A DNA stretch of 56,806 bases from NCBI RefSeq assembly GCF_000620145.1, contig NZ_JHVM01000018.1, positions 1 through 56,806 on the forward strand. The letters are read 5' to 3'. A program made the position numbers and the translations under genes. This document shows positions 22,959-56,806 of the stretch, piece by piece (the stretch's first letter is position 1; the number at the start of each line of letters is the position of its first letter). The DNA comes from Deefgea rivuli DSM 18356. GTDB taxonomy: Bacteria; Pseudomonadota; Gammaproteobacteria; Burkholderiales; Chitinibacteraceae. Under the pieces are notes generated by a model, which searched no databases, was not told where the DNA came from, and saw nothing but the letters and a program-made list of their open reading frames with translations.

Positions 22959-23243
22959 ATGCGCCAGATTGCAATTGCTTTAAGCTTCATTTTAACCGCT
23001 ACGACAAGCGCAGCGGCGACTTTCTGTCCGTGGAAAATACTGGGCGAGGCCAAACCCGAGCGCTTTATCAATCTCACCGTAGTGCAATACGTCGATATTG
23101 CAGATGACGAGTTAAGAGTTTCATTTGGCGGCGGTAATTTTGGCAGTGGTTATGATGTCAAAATCGCCATCAAAACCCGTGAAGACGGGCTAAAAATCCT
23201 AAAAGCGATGCAAGAGACAGCCAAGCAATGCGATAGGGTATAG
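22959..23243 (+). CDS. Small secreted hypothetical protein
   Basis: 94 residues with a signal peptide (MRQIAIALSFILTATTSAAA). The mature part is about 75 residues with two Cys (FCPWKILG, KQCDRV) that could form a disulphide, and strands such as LRVSFGGGNFGSGYDVKIAI. I do not recognise the family. Its promoter would lie in or just after the Correia-like element at 22834-22936. The stop codon overlaps the 47-bp palindrome at 23237. Confidence 0.65.
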   Translation: MRQIAIALSFILTATTSAAATFCPWKILGEAKPERFINLTVVQYVDIADDELRVSFGGGNFGSGYDVKIAIKTREDGLKILKAMQETAKQCDRV

Positions 23244-23283
23244 CCATCCAGCCATTACTAAATAATGGCTAGATTAATATACC
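23237..23283. repeat. 47-bp GGTAT palindromic element, copy 3
   Basis: GGTATAGCCATCCAGCCATT ... ATTAATATACC, 47 bp, with inner stem TAGCCAT (23241-23247) / ATGGCTA (23265-23271). It fills the whole space between two convergent genes and supplies the end of both. Confidence 0.75.
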
Positions 23284-48431: not shown

Positions 48432-48478
48432 GGTATTTAACTGTAGCCATTGATAAGGAATGGCTACAAGTAAATACC
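48432..48478. repeat. 47-bp GGTAT palindromic element, copy 6
   Basis: GGTATTT (48432-48438), GTAGCCATT (48443-48451), AATGGCTAC (48459-48467), AAATACC (48472-48478). Both arm pairs match perfectly. It begins 2 bp after the hmuS stop and directly precedes the structured element at 48485. Confidence 0.85.
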
Positions 48479-48484
48479 ATCAAT

Positions 48485-48718
48485 GATTAGTCAAGATTCA
48501 GATTTGCTGTTGATGCTATGCCGCGATGGTTGGACTGCGCAAAATCCCTTGCATCAAGCCGAGCGAGGAACAAGCGGCAAGGGGCTTTCGGTGGGCTCTG
48601 TTTTGTTAAAGCCCACCACCTTGCCGATTGTCCGCAGCGAGGGTATCCGGCGAAGCCGGACGCAGATACAGGGCGGCCTTCTTTTGCTTACTTTTCTTGG
48701 CCGTTCAAGAAAAGTAAG
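48485..48718 (+). ncRNA. Structured dispersed element, copy 1 (candidate RNA or ssDNA element)
   Basis: About 234 bp, nearly collinear with 56230-56463 and similar at most positions. Predicted stems: A GGCAAGG (48576-48582) / CCTTGCC (48619-48625); B GGTGGGCT (48590-48597) / AGCCCACC (48610-48617); C TCCGGC / GCCGGA (48646-48660); D CTTACTTTTCTTG / CAAGAAAAGTAAG (48687-48718). Stems B and D have paired changes in the other copy. The strand is assigned by the direction of hairpin D and is not certain. Both copies follow a 47-mer. Transcription or mobility is not shown. The open frames crossing it differ between copies at their ends and are not supported as genes. Confidence 0.6.
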
Positions 48719-48818
48719 TGCCGCGCGGCATTAGCGCGACCATGGTGAGTAGAACTTGGATGCTTTCAAATTAAGTTTTTTCATTCATGCGAAATCTTGC
48801 TGCTCAAAAAAATAATTA

Positions 48819-48865
48819 GGTATTTTCCTGTAGGTATTAATCAATAAAGCCTACAGGCAAATACC
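48819..48865. repeat. 47-bp GGTAT palindromic element, copy 7
   Basis: GGTATTT (48819-48825), CCTGTAGG (48827-48834), CCTACAGG (48850-48857), AAATACC (48859-48865). Perfect arms, with an inner stem different from copy 6. It lies 62 bp before hmuT, on the other side of the structured element. The gap 48430-48926 holds only these three elements. Confidence 0.85.
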
Positions 48866-56178: not shown

Positions 56179-56225
56179 GGTATATCAATGCGGCGCTTAC
56201 TTATTAATTTCTACATTGATATACC
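56179..56225. repeat. 47-bp GGTAT palindromic element, copy 9
   Basis: GGTATATCAATG (56179-56190) pairs with CATTGATATACC (56214-56225), 47 bp in all. It precedes the second copy of the structured element, as copy 6 does the first. Confidence 0.8.
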
Positions 56226-56229
56226 CAAG

Positions 56230-56463
56230 AATTAGTAGCGATGTTCAAATTTGGTTGATGCTGTGCCACGATGGTTGAGCTGCGCGAAATCCCTTGTATC
56301 AAGCCGAGCGAGGAACAAACGGCAAGGGGGTTTCGGCGGGTTCTGTTTTGTTAAAACCCGCCGCCTTGCCGATTGTCCGCAGCGAGGGAATACGGCGCGG
56401 CCGGACGCAGATACTAGGGCGGCCTTCTTTGGCTTACCTTTCTTGGCCGTTCAAGAAAGGTAG
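56230..56463 (+). ncRNA. Structured dispersed element, copy 2 (candidate RNA or ssDNA element)
   Basis: Collinear with 48485-48718. Stems: A GGCAAGG / CCTTGCC (56321-56327, 56364-56370); B GGCGGGTT / AACCCGCC (56335-56342, 56355-56362), where pairs changed relative to copy 1 in a compensating way; D TACCTTTCTTG / CAAGAAAGGTA (56435-56462), also compensated. Stem C is weaker. The similarity ends at the foot of stem D, 16 bp before the IS110 transposase stop, so the mobile element may be inserted here. Strand assigned as for copy 1. Confidence 0.6.
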
Positions 56464-56478
56464 ATACCGTCTTGTTCG

Positions 56479-56806
56479 TCAAGCATTTTGATACTCTGCT
56501 TGATACTTTTTTTGGGTTTTCAGTACGCCGAAACAGAGATGAACTAGCTTACGCATTGCCGCGCCAAGGGCAGACATTTTGCTTTTTCCTTTCACCAATA
56601 GACGCTCATATAAAGCCTTAACATGCGGATTGTGCTTGATCCCAACCATCGCCGCCATGTACAGCACGGCACGCAGGCGAGCAGGTCCATTTTTCGATAA
56701 GCGGGCTCGCCCAAGTAGCGATGTACCTGACTGTCTTTCGATCGGAACCAGCCCCAAATAAGCTGCTAATTGTTCGGCTGAATTAAAATGGTGATTGTGC
56801 ATCACG
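56479..56806 (-). mobile_element. IS110-family transposase, C-terminal part (5' end outside window)
   Basis: About 109 residues visible, continuing past the right edge. It matches the Transposase_20 domain: FNSAEQLAAYLGLVPIERQS, TSLLGRARLSKNGPARLRAV and YMAAMVGIKHNPHVKALYER, with the conserved Ser in RQSGTS probably catalytic. IS110 elements use a DEDD recombinase and a bridge RNA for target choice. The DEDD domain lies outside the window. The stop is next to the structured element copy 2. Confidence 0.9.

Follow-up and report, generated by a model that had tools for sequence, protein, structure and literature searches.

Several described systems share single features with the element reported here. 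Integron gene cassettes combine folded recombination sites with varied low-GC genes, and MITEs are non-autonomous, have short inverted ends and occur in many copies. Among structured RNAs, the table entry for TwoAYGGAY rates this family as probably RNA and not cis-regulatory, from the human gut, Gammaproteobacteria and Clostridiales (PMC2864571), and the portion consulted of an RNA survey of 50 genomes lists multi-copy "mobile/repeat sequence candidates" (PMC11109978). REPs are also known as IS targets, in the part of PMC1525189 that we draw on.

The window analysed here, the whole stretch of 56,806 nucleotides on contig NZ_JHVM01000018.1 of Deefgea rivuli DSM 18356, holds two copies of an element of about 234 bp at 48485–48718 and 56230–56463, both lying as first described, with their stems, their loop and a preceding 47-bp palindrome each (Table 1). 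Stem B reads GGTGGGCT/AGCCCACC in copy 1 (48590–48597 and 48610–48617) and GGCGGGTT/AACCCGCC in copy 2 (56335–56342 and 56355–56362), the loop CTGTTTTGTTAA is constant between the two, and in stem D one pair is altered on both sides. The fold of copy 1 beats 200 of 200 shuffles (z −3.4) and that of copy 2 beats 197 of 200 (z −2.5), the latter copy being interrupted within P4, at 56462/56463, by an IS110-family transposon. The original prediction was correct for both copies but too low in its count, as the host genome (3.7 Mb) has 74 matching pieces, many of them fragments and 11 of them P4 hairpins matching their own opposite strand; likewise the end proposed for copy 1 falls short of the fold, which runs further into a 3' pseudoknot.

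Table 1. Features of the two element copies and their surroundings in the window.
Feature	Position	Strand	Remark
47-bp palindrome 5' of copy 1	48432–48478	none	
83-aa open frame across copy 1	48483–48734	+	judged non-gene
5' terminal-repeat-like stretch, copy 1 (host-genus form GATGTTCAGATTTGGTGTTGATG)	48494–48515	+	sequence
P1 outer stem, copy 1	48546–48555 with 48665–48673	+	one C-A mismatch; fully paired in copy 2
P2 hairpin, copy 1	48575–48626	+	stems 48575–48582/48619–48626 and 48590–48597/48610–48617; 5'-side bulge; loop 48598–48609
P3 hairpin, copy 1	48646–48660	+	TCCGGC GAA GCCGGA
P4 hairpin, copy 1	48687–48718	+	most conserved part of element
3' pseudoknot, copy 1	48719–48737	+	TGCC-GCGC-GGCA-TTA-GCGC
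Second 47-bp palindrome, 3' of copy 1	48819–48865	none	
47-bp palindrome 5' of copy 2	56179–56225	none	
5' terminal-repeat-like stretch, copy 2	56240–56260	+	sequence
P1, copy 2	56291–56300 with 56410–56419	+	encloses P2 (56320–56371) and P3 (56393–56403)
P4, copy 2	56433–56462	+	shortened by transposon from 56463
Start of IS110-family transposon	56463–56806	−	ORF 56479–56805 = Transposase_20, E 3.9e-19; runs off contig

The window copies are single, host-genus derivatives adjoining 47-bp palindromes. The host-genus form of their terminal-repeat-like 5' stretch has 30 matches with at most three mismatches in the host genome (reversed pattern, n = 0), and its complementary 3' partner, decayed in copy 1, is present for instance in loci L002, L005 and L010. 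The palindromes themselves form a family (GGTAT..ATACC) whose arms vary yet stay paired. Strict matching gives 15 distinct members across the window and the host loci examined, often 5' of the element; a fourth window member, at 23237–23283, is distant from both element copies.

Relatives of the window copies share a common fold, made up of an outer stem (P1), a long hairpin with freely changing sequence (P2), P3, a conserved hairpin (P4) and, in most cases, a pseudoknot at the 3' end. P2 reaches 30-odd bp, often has a 4–5-nt bulge in its 5' arm and keeps a conserved tip, and in many other copies P3 shows, by eye, a GNA loop on a varying stem. Enough flank was available for 120 copies, 112 of them distinct over the P4–3' region. 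Where both P2 arms could be cut out (73 of 112 copies), they paired with their own partner at a mean of −48.0 kcal/mol vs −27.7 kcal/mol with partners from other copies, and the own partner was better than all of up to 40 sampled others, related copies included, in 41 of 73. P4 and the pseudoknot were aligned without gaps in 73 of the 112 copies, chosen to differ by three or more bases. The pattern used for the named copies demanded most of P4, and covariation is readable at the positions it left open: pair 2–33 is C-G in 41 copies, G-C in 32 and broken in none, pair 5–30 is A-U, C-G or U-A in 71 of the 73, and pair 4–31 is only ever U-G or U-A. Across this alignment 147 cells are changed on both sides vs 65 in shuffles, and the covariation score is 0.239 vs 0.103 shuffled and 0.09 or less in slid registers; pairs with at least one double change are no more numerous than in shuffles (11 vs 10.2). 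A flexible search found both pseudoknot stems, at least 9 bp together, in 94 of 112 copies vs 8–22 of 112 in 20 shuffles, with the pseudoknot absent in 8 of 112 copies; in a fixed register the two stems pair in just 75% and 65% of cells because stem lengths vary. The helices covary beyond chance. The claim that the two copies represent a functional folded RNA or folded single-stranded DNA is borne out, as other copies, instead of breaking the stems at random, keep them while the bases change, with strong compensatory change in P2, P4 and the pseudoknot.

Departures from pairing are not symmetrical between the strands. Among 1982 aligned pairs from 72 P2 hairpins, in an alignment that gave no favour to wobble pairs, G-T occurs 97 times vs 20 for A-C (p 2.6e-13), with other mismatches including G-A (n = 35), A-G (n = 25), A-A (n = 21) and G-G (n = 18). 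Furthermore, when both strands are folded as RNA, the + strand is the more stable in 95 of 104 elements, by a mean of −11.5 kcal/mol; a flanking control leans to the + strand as well, but only slightly (55 of 94, mean −3.5, p 0.03). The wobble excess and the folding asymmetry together point to selection on the + strand, the folded one, and RNA is the more likely folded molecule, favoured over single-stranded DNA.

The element is widespread. All six congeners have matches, with a similar copy present in Deefgea chitinilytica, and the relatives search found matches in 34 of 61 genomes, host included; the host-genome loci examined hold 43 oriented P4 cores. At a threshold of E 1e-4, 37 of 249 phylum genomes match R1, a covariance model built from P4 and the first stem of the pseudoknot. 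They are the host, 8 others of its order, 16 from further orders of the class and 12 with weaker matches, all in a single family outside the class. Per-genome R1 copy counts are lower bounds because at most 19 candidates were scored per genome. A pattern scan of named genomes gave at least 119 loci and confirmed the expectation of relatives in other betaproteobacteria, the titles among the matches listed (n = 80) being mostly Betaproteobacteria, including Herbaspirillum, Thiobacillus, Variovorax, Gallionella and Roseateles. Frequent carriage on plasmids or phages was rejected at the sensitivity used, with two matches among 72,556 plasmid records, each on a replicon of 2.5 Mb, and none among 50,697 phage records (one and zero, respectively, with a second, shorter query). 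The element is undescribed in the literature searched, by sequence words and by topic, in a coverage with most subscription papers outside it.

No Rfam family matches either window copy, or the element at 18 loci of its family and 10 further loci, and one Thiobacillus copy gave just sub-threshold microRNA hairpins and a 12-bit sRNA match. The proposed Infernal/Rfam check thus left the window copies without a family, but it did recover TwoAYGGAY (RF01731) in some relatives of other orders, above cut-off in 2 of 11 and 6 of 19 loci, in total eight loci from four genomes (L213; L304, L305, L207, L373 and L374 of genome G225; L209; L211), five of the eight from G225. These genomes come from other orders of the class, which we take to be Gammaproteobacteria under the customary GTDB scheme. 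In them, RF01731 sits at the position of P1/P2, immediately 5' of the P4–pseudoknot, most matches covering the middle of the model only; in the window, the AYGGAY double hairpin is absent, P2 having one tip. The position of the RF01731 matches at P1/P2 makes the element the broader fold and TwoAYGGAY its upper part in one lineage, so that an orphan Rfam RNA is now tied to a larger fold with a pseudoknot that behaves as a mobile repeat. The toxic-sRNA family, as given in the part of the H. seropedicae sRNA paper that we used (PMC7011215), has no match to the Herbaspirillum loci.

Copies differ between congeners at both window loci. At locus 1, by eye, the element is absent in five of six congeners, four with a terminator-like hairpin only and one (G006) with a single 47-mer, while the sixth (G004) has a different variant in reversed orientation beside a 47-mer. 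At locus 2, where the host's right side ends at the contig end, the element is absent in five congeners and G004 again has a variant in reversed orientation, whose inverted ends are similar (by eye). Of nine G225 stretches, one did not extend far enough to show both sides. The remaining eight are head-to-head units, each about 0.8 kb long and at unrelated sites; they have 18-bp inverted ends that are related to one another (TTGATACCGGACTGGCAA and its variants), a near-identical P4–pseudoknot block and a weak partner end (18–22 bits). The 18-bp end occurs 125 times in G225 with at most two mismatches (control, n = 0). Target duplication was not seen by eye at the compared copies and G225 units, where copies are old and ends unclear.

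The mirror arrangement is not confined to G225. Among 67 cases of neighbouring R1 matches at the 119 loci listed, 52 are head-to-head, 10 tandem and 5 tail-to-tail, in a hand count of matches less than 2.6 kb apart that includes one cut-off match in L156 and leaves out one tail-to-tail pair at 2.8 kb. The head-to-head share has p 2.5e-19 against 25%, with kinship between loci ignored. A head-to-head pair is present in 51 of the 119 loci listed, the others being single or otherwise arranged, and the gaps of 50 of the 52 pairs fall into two groups, 37 of 255–618 bp and 13 of 965–2122 bp, with none between. The tail-to-tail exceptions L098, L111, L115 and L178 have the same 63-bp gap between R1 matches.

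The best reading, to which we give a probability of about 0.5, is a non-coding, non-autonomous mobile repeat with a + strand folding as P1–P2–P3–P4–pseudoknot. Copies are dispersed, the fold is conserved with compensatory changes and asymmetric between strands, there is no coding signal, insertions differ between congeners and pairing is frequently head-to-head; as a whole, its behaviour across many proteobacteria is that of a mobile repeat. An enzyme acting in trans would recognise the folded single strand and copy or move the unit, often to give two mirror-image copies whose 5' ends face inwards. No such enzyme was found; the family tested, the best-known candidate, was that of the Y1/REP transposases.

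These observations can be read in other ways. A structured RNA that serves its host, as a small RNA or a 3' UTR element, such as a protein-binding RNA, and has multiplied in genomes would also have a pseudoknot, G-U tolerance and strand asymmetry, all typical of RNA, and P1/P2 is, in some genomes, the TwoAYGGAY family rated probably RNA in its table entry (PMC2864571); the retention of so elaborate a fold at this distance would fit a host function just as well. Of 20 tandem gene settings in the host genome, 16 have the copy in the same direction and 4 in the opposite one, copies leaning with neighbouring genes. However, among the named loci listed 15 are the same and 21 opposite, so that gene direction was rejected as a general guide to copy orientation. 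The mostly mirror-paired neighbouring copies and the variable presence at both window loci among congeners likewise count against a host-serving RNA, which is the less likely but still a serious rival. The same tally, from which 40 of 139 were excluded as overlapped by a crude ORF call, has 9 copies between divergent vs 25 between convergent genes at the named loci listed, and this scarcity, together with the very stable fold, would suit a transcription terminator or an mRNA 3'-end stabiliser between genes. Yet the window copies have no U-run after P4, an ordinary terminator-like hairpin already precedes some copies (L003, L004 and locus 2) and the structure far exceeds such a need, so we consider this role improbable.

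Movement by a REP-associated tyrosine transposase, with the copies as REP/BIME-type repeats, is suggested by the inverted pairs and compensatory change, which resemble REPs as described in the section of PMC2817692 used here, and by REP-like pairs (GTAGGG..CCCTAC) adjoining some copies. However, Y1_Tnp (RAYT) does not track the element: 16 of 24 genomes with the element have it, and so do 13 of the 20 listed without the element. No element copy lies near Y1_Tnp at the 30 loci examined of 48 listed places, the host's own Y1_Tnp has no adjacent copies, and RAYT was rejected as the mover. With a unit of about 200 nt with a pseudoknot, no GTAG head or GTAG-tagged short palindrome and no partner RAYT flanked by repeats, the REP/BIME reading is very unlikely. 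A small protein gene, for which the 83-aa frame open in copy 1 could be cited, has almost no probability: of 20 short-type host copies just 6, including copy 1, keep the frame open, it has no Pfam match, and the substitutions in host copies show no bias by codon position (249/211/270, with 5' parts aligning poorly in some). The suggestion that relatives are annotated as small hypothetical proteins was not confirmed either: one of the two plasmid-collection matches opened has no listed gene beneath it and the record of the other lists none there.

There are 17 long pairs, 13 named and 4 from the host. In all 13 named pairs the GC content inside is below that outside, by a mean of 13.4 points (−13.4), vs a side-to-side difference of −0.9 for single copies (n = 28; p 1.8e-6). 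Three of the four host pairs, which were chosen for a 1–3 kb span, have inside GC below both flanks; the exceptional pair holds an ordinary SDR gene, and one low-GC pair holds ordinary-looking DnaJ-like genes. Cargo includes a GmrSD_N/Schlafen protein (host contig C7, GC 33), three adjacent dCTP-deaminase/dUTPase-like ORFs without a PADLOC match (host C10, L221 1032–2820, GC 35–38, flanks 52–56%), the PDC-S14 candidate defence protein in L153 (E 1e-105), and bPH_2 and SnoaL-like proteins. The Pfam scan, which left out L120 and L157, gave no match for the cargo scanned from L165, L160, L174, L123, L197 and L181 and sub-cut-off matches only for L148 and L128. PADLOC recognises 2 of 10 cargo proteins, hence defence is a theme and not a rule. 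As pairs can have foreign-looking genes between them, the family is also a marker of cargo-exchange sites and may contribute to building them.

Further features accompany these pairs. A 513-aa protein without a Pfam or PADLOC match lies within a head-to-head pair at L174 5506–7047 (GC 41, flanks 60–63%), a xanthine riboswitch (RF03054) is located close to an element pair at L157 5538–5604, and REP-like pairs (GTAGG..CCTAC, GTAGGGCGGGTTAG..CTAACCCGCCCTAC) occur between element and cargo at about 791–892 and 2854–2950 in L221 and about 2846–2938 in L219.

The metH neighbourhood differs in all seven species of the host genus (L221, L259–L264), with low-GC genes of 32–38% GC. These are the three dCTP-deaminase-like ORFs in the host, a PDZ protein in G001 (about 3.5 kb off, behind an IS110 transposase and other genes), a HATPase protein in G002, several ORFs with PDC-S42 in G003, a pair with a sub-cut-off HEPN match in G004, an Avs5 homologue in G005 (L262, E 7.5e-193) and a NACHT protein in G006. 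PADLOC recognises four of the eight metH-site proteins scanned, two of them weakly. R1 detects the element at six of the seven loci, the exception being G003; full head-to-head enclosure is seen in the host only, and in G002, G004, G005 and G006 the element is detected on one side of the cargo. The host order, by eye, is element, 47-mer, REP-like pair, cargo, REP-like pair, 47-mer, element. As several repeat families share these spots, the cargo is not creditable to the element alone. A bolder and doubtful proposal is that the head-to-head pairs are the ends of an unnamed class of gene-capturing mobile unit in Beta- and Gammaproteobacteria. Each unit would carry one low-GC gene, in some cases for phage defence, and its recognition would depend on the folded + strand, as RNA or single-stranded DNA, with the pseudoknot included. 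The metH neighbourhood, Avs5 homologue included, points to a possible exchange route for anti-phage genes.

Insertions of other elements were also observed. An IS110-family transposon lies at the identical P4 base in three host copies, all at contig ends (window copy 2 and the copies at C1 and C11 of the host assembly G000; L379 and L380). Among the G225 ends opened, a minority of the total, two longer units carry IS110-family insertions at two different places, and P4 as a single common IS110 site was rejected, as these two units were struck elsewhere. IS110 is reportedly RNA-guided.

Compared with integron cassettes, the element differs in being inverted, about 200 nt long and equipped with a pseudoknot. 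It shares with MITEs inverted ends, 18 bp in G225 and about 22 bp in the host genus, and such terminal inverted repeats are present in the G225 units and part of the host copies; the differences are selection on a folded strand and that target duplication was not seen. REP, BIME and REPIN repeats with RAYT, as presented in the text drawn on from PMC2817692, are likewise dispersed, intergenic and hairpin-forming, with inverted pairs and compensatory change, whereas the fold described here is much larger, has a pseudoknot and lacks a GTAG head or Y1_Tnp link. BRE, the betaproteobacterial repeat element, is, in the portion of its paper used here (PMC3110155), also repeated, mostly intergenic, from Betaproteobacteria and found via RNA-structure prediction, but it is described as about 90 bp long, with 69% GC and in tandem arrays. 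The survey candidates share many copies per genome, inconsistent gene orientation and structure, with RNA or DNA left open, although the example given in the survey is linked to a transposase and to a repeat, UYCCGG, and its text does not contain the words Betaproteobacteria, Burkholder, Thiobacillus or Herbaspirillum (PMC11109978). TwoAYGGAY has an Rfam model that ends before P4 and the pseudoknot, and the betaproteobacterial copies tested, window included, have no RF01731 match and another P2 tip, but in eight loci it takes the same P1/P2 place 5' of the P4–pseudoknot module.
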